A stretch of DNA of 64,000 nucleotides from Rhizobiales bacterium GAS188 (GTDB taxonomy: Bacteria; Pseudomonadota; Alphaproteobacteria; Rhizobiales; Beijerinckiaceae). Of the stretch, positions 19,716 to 28,434 are shown one piece after another. Location: positions 5,518,001 through 5,582,000 of the forward strand of contig FNSS01000001.1 of the NCBI GenBank assembly GCA_900104855.1, written 5' to 3'. The translations under genes and the position numbers were made by a program. The notes beneath the pieces were generated by a model. The model worked only from the letters and a program-made list of their open reading frames with translations, was not told the DNA's origin and ran no database searches. Every line of letters begins with the position of its first letter. The stretch's first letter is position 1.

Positions 19716-20900
19716 ATGCGCGAGCGCACCCAGGTCGGCATCGTCGGGGCGGGGCCGGCCGGGCTGCTATTGTCGCATCTCCTGCATCTCCAAGGCATCC
19801 ACTCGATCATCGTCGAGGATCGAAGCCGCGCCTATGTCGAGCACCGGGTGCGCGCCGGCGTCCTCGAGCAGGGTTCGGTCGACACGCTGCGCGAGGCCGG
19901 GCTCGACGCCAGGCTCAAGCGCGAGGGCCTGGTGCATGAGGGCATCCAGATCCAGATCGGCGAGGAGCGCCACCGCCTCGATCTCAAGGAATTGAGTGGC
20001 GGCAAGGTGATCACGGTCTACGGCCAGCAGGAAGTGGTGAAGGACCTGATCGCGCAACGCCTCGCCGATGGCGGGGAGATCCGCTTCGAGGCCGGGAAGG
20101 CGGCGATCCACGACTTCGGCGGCGAGAAGCCGCGCATCACCTACATCCAGGGCGGCGTCGAGCAGGAGATCGCCTGCGACTTCATCGCCGGCTGCGACGG
20201 CTTCCACGGCATCTGCCGCCCCTCCATTCCCGAAGGCGCCATCACGATGTTCGATCGCGTCTACCCCTTCGCCTGGCTCGGCATCCTGGCGAAGGCCGCG
20301 CCTGCCTCCGAGGAGGTGATCTACGTCAATCATCCGCGCGGCTTTGCGCTGTCGAGCATGCGCTCGCAGGAGGTGGCGCGGCTCTATCTGCAATGCAAGC
20401 CCGACGAGAACCTCGCCGAATGGCCAGATCATCGCATCTGGGAAGAGCTGCATGCGCGGCTGCGCTCGCGCGGCGGCGACACGGTGCATGAGGGCCAGGT
20501 GCTCGAGCGCGGCATCACCGGCATGAGGAGCTTCGTCGCCGAGCCGATGCGCCATGGCAGGCTGTTCCTCGCGGGCGACGCCGCCCATATCGTGCCGCCG
20601 ACCGGCGCCAAGGGCATGAACCTCGCAGTCGCCGATGTGCGGGTGCTGTCCCGGGCGCTCGGCGCCTTCTATCGCGACAACCGCTCAGATCTTCTCGACG
20701 GCTATTCGGCGACCTGCCTCGCCCGCGTCTGGCGGGCCGAGCATTTCTCCTGGTTCATGACCTCGATGCTGCACAACTTCCCGAACGAGGACGATTTCGG
20801 CCGGCGGCTGCAGCGCTCGCAGCTCGATTATGTGGTGAGCTCCAAGGCCGCGGGACGAAGCCTCGCCGAGAACTATGTCGGCCTGCCCTTCGCGAGTTGA
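19716..20900 (+). CDS. pobA: 4-hydroxybenzoate 3-monooxygenase
   Basis: 394 residues, the exact length of classical PobA. FAD-binding GAGPAGLLLSHLL at the N-terminus, RVRAGVLEQGSVD, the NAD(P)H/FAD motif CDGFHGICR, LIF-type active-site region VIYVNHPRGFALSSMRS, and the second FAD motif GRLFLAGDAAHIVPPTGAKGMN followed by AENYVGLPF. The tyrosines in IYVNHP and ENYVGLP correspond to Tyr201 and Tyr385 of the Pseudomonas enzyme. It hydroxylates 4-hydroxybenzoate to protocatechuate using NADPH. The ATG follows GAGGAGGAC; the longer upstream frame is a shadow of the opposite gene. No pca genes are nearby. Confidence 0.96.
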   Translation: MRERTQVGIVGAGPAGLLLSHLLHLQGIHSIIVEDRSRAYVEHRVRAGVLEQGSVDTLREAGLDARLKREGLVHEGIQIQIGEERHRLDLKELSGGKVITVYGQQEVVKDLIAQRLADGGEIRFEAGKAAIHDFGGEKPRITYIQGGVEQEIACDFIAGCDGFHGICRPSIPEGAITMFDRVYPFAWLGILAKAAPASEEVIYVNHPRGFALSSMRSQEVARLYLQCKPDENLAEWPDHRIWEELHARLRSRGGDTVHEGQVLERGITGMRSFVAEPMRHGRLFLAGDAAHIVPPTGAKGMNLAVADVRVLSRALGAFYRDNRSDLLDGYSATCLARVWRAEHFSWFMTSMLHNFPNEDDFGRRLQRSQLDYVVSSKAAGRSLAENYVGLPFAS

Positions 20901-20942
20901 CGGGCCAGCGCCCGCTTATTCCGGAGGCAGGCGAGGAGCGGG

Positions 20943-21155
20943 TCATTGCTTGTCTGGGTCAAGTTCTGGATGTTCTCTTATAATCGGCATCTGAATCTTT
21001 GTAACTATTGTTCCCATGATTTCGCCAGCAGCGAACAGAAAGAGCCTTTGCTCACCTCTATTCTCGATCTTTCGTAACAACGAATCCAACTGATTGAACT
21101 CCTGAGATAGCCTGTGTGTTGTCTCCAAAATCAATGAAGCAAGTTCCTTCCGCAT
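20943..21155 (-). CDS. Small hypothetical protein, third gene of the low-GC cassette
   Basis: 70 residues, mostly helical (LILETTHRLSQEFNQLDSLLRKIENRG), then a hydrophobic patch LFLFAAGEIMGTIVTKIQMPI and an acidic tail. GGGAGC seven bases before the ATG overlaps the end of the preceding gene, three bases away, so translation is coupled. No family recognised. Lower GC than the neighbours on both sides. The 40 bases from here to the pobA stop hold nothing. Confidence 0.65.
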   Translation of the reverse strand: MRKELASLILETTHRLSQEFNQLDSLLRKIENRGEQRLFLFAAGEIMGTIVTKIQMPIIREHPELDPDKQ

Positions 21156-21158
21156 TGA

Positions 21159-21770
21159 TTAGCTCCCATGCCTAGAAATCGAGACAGCCGTGAGATTCCA
21201 TACATTCGCGAACGCGTCGACGAATTCTGCCATGCCAATCATGGCCGCCTCGCAATGACGATGCCGAGGCTCGCCGCCAGTCATCCGCCAGGGAAGTTCC
21301 ATGTTCAAAGAGGAACCGAACTCAAGGGTTACCAAAGCCGAGATGACCTTTCCGAATTCCGGGATCGTCACGCGAAACAGAAGATGCGGCTGTGCCCATA
21401 GACCACCCTCGAGACAGGTCGCTTGCCCATAAACGACTTTCGCGTCGGGCCCGAGCTCGCCGAGAACGGCACTGTCGCAGGCACTGACGGTCTGCGCGTA
21501 AGCGGTGTCGTACTCAGCATCCGGAAATCCGCCGAAAACGAACATCGCCATCGAAGACAAGACGGTTTCGAACCGTCCACCGACGAATTCATGCAATGTC
21601 GTCAAGACTTGGCCAAGGTGGTGTTGAGCTTCCTCGGCCGTATCATCTCGAGGCAGCGCATTTGGGGATGTCGCGGGGGTTGCGGAGAACCTCGCAATCA
21701 CGATGTCGAGCGCGCCGCAAGTTGTCTTGAGCGCCCACATACCTTTATACACTGCGAGGCCAATTATCAC
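21159..21770 (-). CDS. Hypothetical protein, second gene of the low-GC cassette
   Basis: About 203 residues from a GTG that overlaps the preceding gene by 26 bases; an ATG at 21740 is an alternative (193 residues). No signal peptide or clear membrane helix. Mixed alpha/beta with a conserved-looking core VLSSMAMFVFGGFPD, PDAKVVYGQATCLEGGLWAQPHLLFRV and FGKVISALVTLEFGSSLNMELPWRM. The repeated 'PHLLFRVTIPEFG' type strands suggest a compact sensor-like fold, but that is a guess. No known domain recognised. Confidence 0.65.
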   Translation of the reverse strand: MIIGLAVYKGMWALKTTCGALDIVIARFSATPATSPNALPRDDTAEEAQHHLGQVLTTLHEFVGGRFETVLSSMAMFVFGGFPDAEYDTAYAQTVSACDSAVLGELGPDAKVVYGQATCLEGGLWAQPHLLFRVTIPEFGKVISALVTLEFGSSLNMELPWRMTGGEPRHRHCEAAMIGMAEFVDAFANVWNLTAVSISRHGS

Positions 21771-22242
21771 CGCGGAATACCTGGTTTAGCCCTGAGACAC
21801 ATGAGTCGCAAATGAACACTCCGGGCCCCCCGGCGAGGCGGATTTCGGGCTCGCGCCGACAACAGAAGGAGCATTCACGCTCGACTCGAGCGGCCGAAGC
21901 TGTTGTTCGTGGCGAGTCTCCGCTAATTTGATCCCACGCCATCTGAACCCATGATTTCGCAAGGTCTTCAAGAGTCTTGTCCTTAATCTCCTTGGCGACT
22001 CTGATAGCGAGGAGCCCGACCGACATGGCCGCGTCGAATTTCTCGGCCATCAGCAATTGCGAATGTAGTGCCGCGAACGGCCCATAGAGCGGAGGATGGT
22101 TAAACGACGACACTGTGGTCTCCACATGTTTTGCCGCAAGCTTCCTGGGAGTGGCCTCCTTCGGGAACATCAATGCGGCCATCCGACGATACGCTGCCTC
22201 CCGACGTTTGTCCCACAAGGCTTGGTCCCGACCGGGAAGCAA
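21745..22242 (-). CDS. Hypothetical protein with ClpX-type C4 zinc finger, first gene of the low-GC cassette
   Basis: 165 residues. Helical N-terminal part (AYRRMAALMFPKEATPRKLAAKHVETTVSSF, then AALHSQLLMAEKFDAAMSVGLLAIRVAKEI) and a C-terminal zinc finger CSFCCRREPEIRLAGGPG with FICDSCV, matching the N-terminal C4 domain that ClpX uses for adaptor binding, here without any AAA+ domain. The frame opens with a TTG at 22242; the first internal ATG lies about 20 codons in. It overlaps the next gene by 26 bases and is divergent from the DUF3237 gene. Confidence 0.68.
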   Translation of the reverse strand: MLPGRDQALWDKRREAAYRRMAALMFPKEATPRKLAAKHVETTVSSFNHPPLYGPFAALHSQLLMAEKFDAAMSVGLLAIRVAKEIKDKTLEDLAKSWVQMAWDQISGDSPRTTASAARVERECSFCCRREPEIRLAGGPGVFICDSCVSGLNQVFRGDNWPRSV

Positions 22243-22340
22243 AATCTTACTGTCGTGGGCGAATGGCTAAGCCCCCGGGAAATACAACCGACATTTGCGA
22301 TATCGCCCACTTTAGCCAGTCGTAAACTGCGGAGCAGCCC

Positions 22341-25729: not shown

Positions 25730-26803
25730 TCAACCGATGACCCGGCGGCCGCCTGCGTGCTCGTCGGCGCGAAAGCCCGGCACCGGGACGGCTGTTTCCC
25801 TCAGCACGAGTGGCGCCTCGATGACATGGGTGGATGACGGCAGGTCCGGATGGGCCTGGCGCCACTCGATGAGGCGGATCGCCTGGTCCGCAGTGACGAT
25901 CGGGTCCTGGCGGAACGTCGTCAGCCGATAGGCACCCCACGACGCCTGCGGAATATCGTCGAAGCCGATGACGGACAGATTCTCGGGCACCGAGAGACGC
26001 CGCTCCCGCCGCGCATGGTCGATGACGCCGAGAGCCATGAGGTCGTTGACGCAGAAGACGGCCTGAGGGGGGCTGGGCCCGTCAAGCAGGGCCTTGGCCG
26101 CCACGACACCGCCTTCGTAGTCGGACCCCTCGCCACGGCCGACGGTGACCGCGAGCCCACAGCGCTGCGCCTCGTCCTGGAAGGCGCGCTCGCGCTCGGT
26201 GAGACTGAGCGTGCCGGCCCATGAGCTGACGAGCCCCAGGCGCGTGAAGCCGCGGCCGTGGAACAGCGCCGCGGCGGTCCGCCCGGCGGCAGCGTTGTCG
26301 GGCATCAGATGATCCGTGTCGGGCTCCGAGCGGCCGAGGACGAGGACGGGCTGGCCGTTGCGCCGGGCAGCCTCGACGAAACTGGACGGGGGCGAACCCG
26401 ACAGCACGATCACCGCTTCGGCCATGTGCCCCATCAGGATCCGCTGCGCCGACGCCCTTTCCTCCATCGTCAGGCCGGTGTTGAGGATGATCGGCACGCT
26501 TCCGCGCCGGATCAGCCTGGCGGTCAGGGCGGCGAGAAGCTGCGCACGGATGCCCTCCTCGGGCTTCGTGACGACGATGCCGACCAGGCGGCTGCGCCGC
26601 GCCAGAAGCCCCCTGGCCAAGTCGTTCACGTGATACCCGAGAGCCTGGGCGGCCTGCATCACCTTATCGCGGGTTTCCGGCGCAATGCTCGCCCCATCCG
26701 TGAAGGCGCGCGATACGGCCGAGCGGGATACGCCGGCGAGCCTGGCCACTTGCGATGCGCTCGCAAAATGCCGCACATGCCTGGAGTGATGGACGTCCGC
26801 CAT
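25730..26803 (-). CDS. LacI family transcriptional repressor
   Basis: 357 residues. Helix-turn-helix ASQVARLAGVSRSAVSRAF with hinge ALGYHVNDLARGLLARRS near residue 60, then a periplasmic-binding-protein-like effector domain (VGIVVTKPEEG, AVFCVNDLMALGVIDHARR, SVIGFDDIPQASWGAYRLTTFRQ). An N-terminal 15-residue extension precedes the HTH. It is divergent from the ABC-GDPD operon, and two TGCACA-type palindromes lie in the shared region, so it very likely controls that operon and itself. Confidence 0.92.
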   Translation of the reverse strand: MADVHHSRHVRHFASASQVARLAGVSRSAVSRAFTDGASIAPETRDKVMQAAQALGYHVNDLARGLLARRSRLVGIVVTKPEEGIRAQLLAALTARLIRRGSVPIILNTGLTMEERASAQRILMGHMAEAVIVLSGSPPSSFVEAARRNGQPVLVLGRSEPDTDHLMPDNAAAGRTAAALFHGRGFTRLGLVSSWAGTLSLTERERAFQDEAQRCGLAVTVGRGEGSDYEGGVVAAKALLDGPSPPQAVFCVNDLMALGVIDHARRERRLSVPENLSVIGFDDIPQASWGAYRLTTFRQDPIVTADQAIRLIEWRQAHPDLPSSTHVIEAPLVLRETAVPVPGFRADEHAGGRRVIG

Positions 26804-26866
26804 GGTCTCTCGTCATCGGAACGTGATGGCCGGTGAGGCAGCAAATCCGGCCAGTCATAAAAGCTT

Positions 26867-26880
26867 TGCACAGCCGTGCA
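26867..26880. promoter_or_regulatory. LacI-type operator 1
   Basis: TGCACAGCCGTGCA, a palindrome with one mismatched central pair, 64 bases upstream of the LacI gene start. Confidence 0.65.
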
Positions 26881-26932
26881 TCAGTAGCAGATGCGTAGCC
26901 TTCCTAACCTGTATCCACAAGGAAAATTTCTA

Positions 26933-26946
26933 TGCACAGCTGTGCA
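26933..26946. promoter_or_regulatory. LacI-type operator 2
   Basis: TGCACAGCTGTGCA, a perfect 14-base palindrome centred 66 bases from operator 1. A possible promoter (TTGCAG at 26953, TACAAA at 26977) follows it towards the ABC operon. Confidence 0.72.
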
Positions 26947-27054
26947 AGCCTATTGCAGTCTCCCGGTCAGTGCGCTTACAAAATAGCGTCCGGACTTCAT
27001 TGGATGTCGCGGCTGAGAACGACAAGACGGCCGTCCGGGTCAGGGAGGATCGGC

Positions 27055-28434
27055 ATGTTTAAAGGCTTCAACGGAGTGCTGCGCCGGCTGGCCGCGGCTG
27101 TCTTCGCTCTCGCCATGGTCAGCGCACCGCCTTTCGCCAAGGATTTCGCTTTCGCCAAGGATTTCGCGATCACCGTGTGGTCCGGCGGGACGAGCGACCC
27201 CGAGCACTACCGCGTCGACAACATCAAGCTTGCGGCCGAGCAATTGCAGCGGGAGGCGCAGGCCGAGGGCAAGGACCTCAAGATCAAGGTCGACTCGCGC
27301 GTCTTCAACGACTGGGACAGCTTCAAGCAGGCCTTCACCCTCGCGGCGCAGTCGAAGACAGGCCCCAACATCGTCGTCACCGGCCATGAGGACATCGCCG
27401 CCTGGTCGCAGGCCGGCTTGCTGCGCCCGGTCGAGGAACTCGTCGATTTCGACTCCTGGCCGCTCAGCGAAATCTTTCCGAACCTGTTGAACTCGGCGAA
27501 GATCAACGGCGTGACCTATGGCCTGCCGCAGGACGCCGAGGCGCGACCCCTATTCGCCTGGATCCCCCACCTGAAGGCGATCGGCTGGAGCGATGCCGAC
27601 ATTGCCTCTCTGCCCGACCGCATCGCCAAGGGGCAGTACACCCTTTACGACATGCTGGCCGACGCCAAGAAGATGCAGGACAAGGGCATCGTCGCGCCGG
27701 GCTACGGCTTCTATCCGCGCAACGTGAACGGTCCGGACTTCTGGCAGTTCTACGTCGCTTTCGGCGGCCAGATGTTCGACCCGAAGAGCGGCAAGCTCGT
27801 CTTCGACCAGGCCGCGATGACGAAGTTCTACAAATTCTTCGCGGACGCTGTGGCGATGGGCGTGACGAAGAAGAACCATATCGGCCTGCCCATCGATCAA
27901 TGGTATGGCGAGGTCGCGAGCGGCAAGGCCGGTTTCTGGCATGGCGGCACCTGGCATTATGCGCGCTATACCGGCAAGGAGGGCCTCAAGGACTTCTTCG
28001 GAACGGTGCAGTTCGGTCTCATCCCGGCCGGGGAGAAGGGGGGCAAAGCGACGACCCTGACGCATCCGCTCGTCTACTTGATCACGAAGCAGGGCAATGA
28101 CGACGACGCCAACATCGCGGCACAACTCGTCACGGTCGCCTCGGAGCCGCGCCTCAACGTCCTGCACGCGGTGGCCTCCGCGCATCTCGCGATTTCGAAG
28201 GAGGAGACGCAGATCCCGCTCTACGCCGACAACCGTTGGGCCTTGGAGGCGACGAAGCGGCTCATGCCATCCGCGGTATCGATGCCCAACGACGCCAAGT
28301 TCGGGGCCTATTGGGACATCATGTGGAAAGGACTTCTTGCCGCATGGACGGGCGACAAGTCTCCGGACGTCGCGGCGCATGACGCCGCCACCGAGGCGAA
28401 GAGCCGCCTCGGCGACGCCATCGTGGTCCGCTGA
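27055..28434 (+). CDS. Carbohydrate-type ABC substrate-binding protein (family 1)
   Basis: 459 residues. The ATG at 27055 follows AGGGAGGA. Signal peptide with hydrophobic core AAAVFALAMVSAPPFA, followed by a duplicated FAKDFA hexapeptide from an exact 18-bp duplication (27132-27167). Mature features: ITVWSGG, YGLPQDAEARPLFA, GEVASGKAGFWHGGTWHYAR, as in SBP_bac_1 proteins for sugars and glycerol-3-phosphate-like ligands. First gene of the operon with two permeases, an ATPase and a GDPD enzyme. Confidence 0.9.
   Translation: MFKGFNGVLRRLAAAVFALAMVSAPPFAKDFAFAKDFAITVWSGGTSDPEHYRVDNIKLAAEQLQREAQAEGKDLKIKVDSRVFNDWDSFKQAFTLAAQSKTGPNIVVTGHEDIAAWSQAGLLRPVEELVDFDSWPLSEIFPNLLNSAKINGVTYGLPQDAEARPLFAWIPHLKAIGWSDADIASLPDRIAKGQYTLYDMLADAKKMQDKGIVAPGYGFYPRNVNGPDFWQFYVAFGGQMFDPKSGKLVFDQAAMTKFYKFFADAVAMGVTKKNHIGLPIDQWYGEVASGKAGFWHGGTWHYARYTGKEGLKDFFGTVQFGLIPAGEKGGKATTLTHPLVYLITKQGNDDDANIAAQLVTVASEPRLNVLHAVASAHLAISKEETQIPLYADNRWALEATKRLMPSAVSMPNDAKFGAYWDIMWKGLLAAWTGDKSPDVAAHDAATEAKSRLGDAIVVR
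27132..27167. repeat. Exact 18-bp tandem duplication in a signal-peptide region
   Basis: TTTCGCCAAGGATTTCGC occurs twice in direct succession, in frame, duplicating six residues at the signal-peptide end. Confidence 0.95.

Follow-up and report, generated by a model that had tools for sequence, protein, structure and literature searches.

Three open reading frames (ORFs) lie in a row on the minus strand of the window (the whole stretch of 64,000 nucleotides of Rhizobiales bacterium GAS188 that was analysed): ORF 1 (22242-21745), ORF 2 (21770-21159) and ORF 3, also named P3 (21155-20943). ORF 1 and ORF 2 overlap by 26 nt; the gap between ORF 2 and ORF 3 is 3 nt. The GC content is 0.53-0.58 over 20750-22250 and 0.64-0.69 in both flanks; that of ORF 3 by itself is 43%. 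The tight, GC-poor row of three genes including a zinc finger, reported in a preliminary description of this DNA, is therefore real, given the ORF coordinates, the GC dip and the PF06689 match of ORF 1. None of the three proteins matches a PADLOC model at E values up to 1. No integrase or delivery domain was found near the cassette, and no phage gene lies next to it in the window. The cassette flanks are not syntenic in the congeneric genomes that were searched for an empty site. A smaller second GC dip (0.58) is located at 26750-27250 of the window, beside a LacI-type regulator. The features of the cassette are as follows.

21745..22242, minus strand: ORF 1, ClpX-finger protein (PF06689 match; kin beside P3 at loci L078 and L120).
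21778..21876, minus strand: C4 zinc finger (PF06689) of ORF 1, residues 123-155 (E 5.1e-7).
21159..21770, minus strand: 'ORF 2', 203 aa, probably about 150 residues of other origin plus an out-of-frame tail remnant (no relatives; +1 tail reading).
21172..21321, minus strand: putative twin-CX3C toxin-tail remnant (E 9.7e-6 genome-wide; 31.0 bits).
21163..21167, minus strand: Shine-Dalgarno sequence GGGAG of ORF 3, read from the sequence.
20943..21155, minus strand: ORF 3 (P3), 70 aa, predicted helical hairpin, intact member of an unnamed immunity-type family (relatives, invariant residues, model).

The Shine-Dalgarno sequence of ORF 3 is good and lies 7 bases 5' of the ATG. The protein has no match in Pfam, NCBIfam or PADLOC and no significant one in PHROGs. 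Profile and pattern searches found its family at 46 distinct loci besides the window (our own count), in the same bacterial family and order, in further Proteobacteria, and on both plasmids and viral contigs; in phage and plasmid records, only Rhizobium lusitanum, Salmonella and Burkholderia relatives were found. Typical members have 68-75 aa and a C-terminal motif like PIVRQYPELDPD. P63, L65, D66, P67 and D68 are invariant in an alignment of 26 sequences, and all five are present in ORF 3. The sequence argues strongly for membership of ORF 3 in this family. The AlphaFold2 model obtained with the same alignment is a helical hairpin (mean pLDDT 95.9), for which Foldseek gave only insignificant helical matches in the PDB (E at least 2.5). 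The preliminary description held that the second and third genes match no family; this stands for both in the named libraries, but ORF 3 does have a clear, unnamed family.

At 11 P3 loci, an ORF of the same strand ends directly upstream of P3 (7-38 bp where the P3 start was resolved). These ORFs end in a very short tail (about 45-60 aa) with the signature C-x3-C ... R-x-RRC-(I/V/M)-R-(D/E)-C ... G-x-F-x-Y. Twin CX3C motifs are present in all intact tails (11/11). The tail is carried by an RHS-repeat protein (L072), by Rhs-core proteins (L085, L093), by phage portal proteins (L098, L101; PF04860) or by ORFs without a named domain, some of them small (L079, L083, L086, L088, L089, L091). At a twelfth locus (L099), it is broken by a stop and a frameshift and P3 is intact. 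About half of the P3 loci have no recognisable tail. A reciprocal search with the tail, run on 249 genomes of the order, found little because no more than 25 candidates per genome were scored. Taken together, these loci point strongly to a recurring order, tail then P3.

The tail matches no Pfam family. Its only matches among PDB profiles, to a vicilin peptide and to TIM10, are faint and non-significant; both of these are helical proteins with twin CX3C motifs. By analogy, the intact tail may be a helical hairpin pinned by disulfides. In polymorphic toxins, the immunity gene lies directly behind the toxin gene (PMC10539506, PMC5576092). The order of tail and P3 has this toxin-immunity geometry, and it is this layout that suggests a toxic tail. 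Literature searches for a ClpX finger or a CX3C motif in polymorphic toxins found nothing in the papers covered.

Several loci deserve separate mention. On two viral contigs (L098, 3275-4993; L101, 3305-4993), a PF04860 portal protein has the twin-CX3C tail and P3 lies directly behind; these portals are candidate portal-borne polymorphic toxins. In L099 (4602-5210), the portal ends early, the tail is frameshifted and P3 is intact, which would be an independent case of a decaying toxin with retained immunity. L068 (12 kb) is an array of Rhs fragments whose Cys-rich C-termini differ. A small gene stands behind each of them, and among these are a P3 relative and a frameshifted ClpX-finger gene. 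Divergent P3 relatives are found in L101 (5570-6298), L120 (2-751) and L069 (5956-6309). Those of L101 and L120 are each preceded by a divergent twin-CX3C tail, hinting at toxin-immunity subfamilies that co-diverge.

A tail profile built without the window sequence was run over the whole home genome. It gave a single significant match, at 21249-21178 on the minus strand (E 9.7e-6), in a frame that differs from that of ORF 2. Its score is 31.0 bits, versus a best score of 12.1 in 20 shuffled translations of the window. The open frame of the remnant extends from 21321 to 21175 plus TAG, with an upstream stop (TGA) at 21324-21322. The remnant sequence, GGHDWHGRIRRRVRECMESHGCLDF, is followed by TAG and lies 16 bases 5' of the ORF 3 ATG. 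Three of the four twin-CX3C cysteines are lost: the first CX3C is missing, and the first cysteine of the RRC part is replaced by an arginine codon. There is thus a strong case, made from sequence comparison, for a tail remnant at the expected place before ORF 3. The home genome contains no other tail, and its single Rhs core is far from the cassette. ORF 3 is probably an orphan, a status held with moderate confidence. An orphan immunity island would hold two or more immunity genes that lack their toxin; ORF 3 fits this, and ORF 1 is a candidate by association. Behind the sole Rhs core (L105; C1:7343933) lie two small genes of 116 and 143 aa, related to each other, which resemble immunity genes that arose by duplication.

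The frame of ORF 2 is open for 208 codons; its start is uncertain and it has no clear ribosome-binding site. No relatives were found in about 350 genomes (order and relatives), GTDB contigs, viral contigs or plasmids. Assignment to any family was rejected, the sole match being a sub-threshold one to DUF2267; a likeness to class III nucleotide cyclases noticed by eye is not supported by Pfam. AlphaFold of ORF 2 alone gave a pLDDT of 41. ORF 2 is not an intact polymorphic toxin: the tail is out of its frame, one of the four cysteines of the twin CX3C motif is left, and there is no Rhs or portal match. The C-terminus of ORF 2 resembles the shifted (+1) reading of the L098, L088 and L099 tails; the score of this reading is reached by 0/300, 0/300 and 1/300 shuffles, respectively. 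In the shifted frame, the intact L098 tail reads MICLAAYADAFANVAN; the ORF 2 counterpart is MIGMAEFVDAFANVWN. The +1 readings of the remaining tails give no clear signal against ORF 2. Base composition by codon position is coding-like throughout ORF 2. This was tried as proof of the C-terminal frame and is uninformative: it cannot settle the frame, since at most loci the +1 frame has the better score for intact tails, too. Since the remnant is frame-shifted, has lost cysteines and is preceded by the stop at 21324-21322, ORF 2 is most likely, in its 3' part, a wrong-frame read-through of a dead toxin tail. With moderate confidence, it is probably composite and not one gene in one frame; its first ~150 residues may stem from the main part of the former carrier or from an independent gene. 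It would then be an annotation trap: a plausible 203-aa 'unknown gene' with a toxin fossil of broken frame at its end and a living immunity gene next to it.

The start of ORF 1 is ambiguous (TTG at 22242 or ATG at 22182). Residues 123-155 of its 165 aa match PF06689 above the curated cut-off, and the finger also matches the zinc-binding domain of solved ClpX structures. The AAA+ ATPase domain is missing; NCBIfam ClpX models cover the finger alone and score far below their cut-off. The C4 ClpX-type finger without AAA+ part that had been read in the first gene is thus borne out. No convincing relatives of the N-terminal region were found, and a class-wide search with ORF 1 was dominated by ClpX itself. 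The zinc-binding domain of ClpX binds adaptors. The true ClpX of the home genome (9.09 Mb) is encoded at a separate locus (L004).

Related finger proteins are found in phage or Rhs immunity cargo and not by Clp genes at the loci examined. In a gammaproteobacterial MAG (L078), a finger protein comes first, then a tail remnant (17 bits) and then P3, in the order seen in the window. A phage contig with an SU10 capsid gene (L120) was reached via the finger, a route independent of the searches with P3; it holds in succession a weak tail (15 bits), then a P3 relative (48 bits), then a finger protein. In the Rhs array L068, which holds a P3 relative, the frameshifted finger gene lies directly 3' of an Rhs protein; in L092, P3 is followed at a distance of 2.7 kb by a finger protein. 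Stand-alone ClpX-finger proteins thus appear to adjoin the ORF 3 family repeatedly, which is supporting evidence and not proof. The test of conserved gene order set in the preliminary description had a mixed outcome: the exact trio of the window was found nowhere else, but finger proteins and the ORF 3 family recur jointly (L078, L120, L068). Because finger proteins accompany this family at these loci, ORF 1 is probably part of such cargo; the association is a weak indication that its role would be that of another piece of immunity cargo of the same kind. Stand-alone ClpX-finger proteins are hypothetical proteins with no known role, and the association offers a starting point for their study.

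Two further finger genes occur in the home genome. A paralogue (L002, 1288-1656) is also found, close to a pentapeptide-repeat gene, in predicted viral contigs of IMG/VR (L118, L119); because these copies are 99-100% identical, it is probably in a prophage cargo region. Another protein (L003, 1450-2142) has a ClpX-type finger behind a different N-terminal domain, which we take to be of glyoxalase-associated type.

The best explanation, and a likely one, is a polymorphic-toxin module that was acquired horizontally and has since partly decayed, while its immunity gene stayed intact and is now probably an orphan. Horizontal acquisition is suggested by the GC content and the distribution of the family. 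This fits the earlier proposal of a horizontal module, perhaps a defence unit: the GC is foreign and ORF 3 would be an immunity-type gene of a mobile toxin module. ORF 3 would be the immunity gene, which in relatives lies directly 3' of a twin-CX3C toxin-like tail on Rhs or portal proteins. The toxin tail of the window would have decayed to a fossil, out of frame and depleted of cysteines, at the 3' end of 'ORF 2'. The hairpin of ORF 3 might bind and thereby block the hairpin toxin tail that competitors or phages deliver; neutralisation of the tail by ORF 3 is inferred, and the exact mode of binding is graded weak.

It is unlikely that the three ORFs are a functional operon in which ORF 2 is intact, having overprinted the old tail, and ORFs 1-3 form a new immunity or defence unit. 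The 208 open codons, the coding-like composition and the tight gene spacing are what such an operon would have, but ORF 2 is without relatives in all collections searched and without a clear ribosome-binding site, its C-terminus resembles shifted intact tails, and shifted intact tails look coding-like as well. A comparably low probability is given to a structural role, in which the Cys-rich tail is an assembly tail of Rhs and portal proteins, P3 is a chaperone or stabilising partner and the window holds a relic of the pair. Toxicity of the tail is a deduction from layout, its shortness suits this role, and twin-CX3C helical hairpins occur in non-toxic proteins, e.g. TIM10 (the non-significant profile match). 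However, a position behind an Rhs core or at the end of a portal protein, with a small gene directly downstream, is the classic toxin-immunity layout (PMC10539506, PMC5576092), and swapping between unrelated carriers together with decay of the tail while P3 is kept (window, L099) suits toxin-immunity better. The proteolysis-adaptor or stress unit of the preliminary description, with an ORF 1 finger that would dock on adaptors or substrates of ClpX, is less probable than either and found no support. The match of the finger to the ClpX zinc-binding domain (Pfam, solved structures) speaks for it, but ORF 3 belongs to a different and unrelated context, that of toxin tails, the finger proteins related to ORF 1 keep company with phage and Rhs immunity cargo at the loci examined, and nothing ties ORF 2 or ORF 3 to proteolysis.

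The decayed toxin-immunity module, the preferred reading, can be extended, tentatively, beyond the window. The tail and the P3 hairpin could form a toxin-immunity pair, so far undescribed, that passes from one carrier to another (Rhs proteins, phage portal proteins), often with a ClpX-finger protein as second immunity or regulatory factor. The window would then keep the immunity side of the pair after the death of the toxin. Polymorphic toxins as a kind are already known; the tail/P3 pair appears to be without a name in the libraries and papers searched. A sequence signature is now available on both sides of this apparently unnamed pair common to Rhs weapons and phage portals, so toxicity can be tested directly.

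The closest known systems are of four types. ClpX has in its zinc-binding domain (PF06689; PDB 1ovx, 2ds5) the same C4 finger as ORF 1, whereas ORF 1 has no AAA+ part and its N-terminal ~118 residues are unrelated. Rhs toxins: Serratia Rhs1/RhsI1 is an Rhs polymorphic toxin with downstream immunity, and orphan immunity genes are described (PMC10539506). Here too, a small gene follows a variable C-terminal domain and immunity-type genes outlive the toxin; in contrast, the putative tail of the window is a fossil with a broken frame, there is no Rhs core in its neighbourhood, and a named family that matches the tail/P3 pair was not found. In temperate phages, MuF toxins (PMC5576092) likewise have a toxin-like C-terminus on a head-associated protein, then a small gene, whereas in the relatives found here the tail is part of the portal protein itself and the window cassette has no adjacent phage gene. 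Alpha-hairpinins, twin-CX3C plant peptides (PMC11591084), have a CX3C...CX3C spacing like that of intact tails, and the weak profile match of the tail to a vicilin-derived peptide (6o3q; E 0.065) is non-significant; the tail, in contrast, is a C-terminal domain of bacterial or phage proteins, and the likeness may be convergent.
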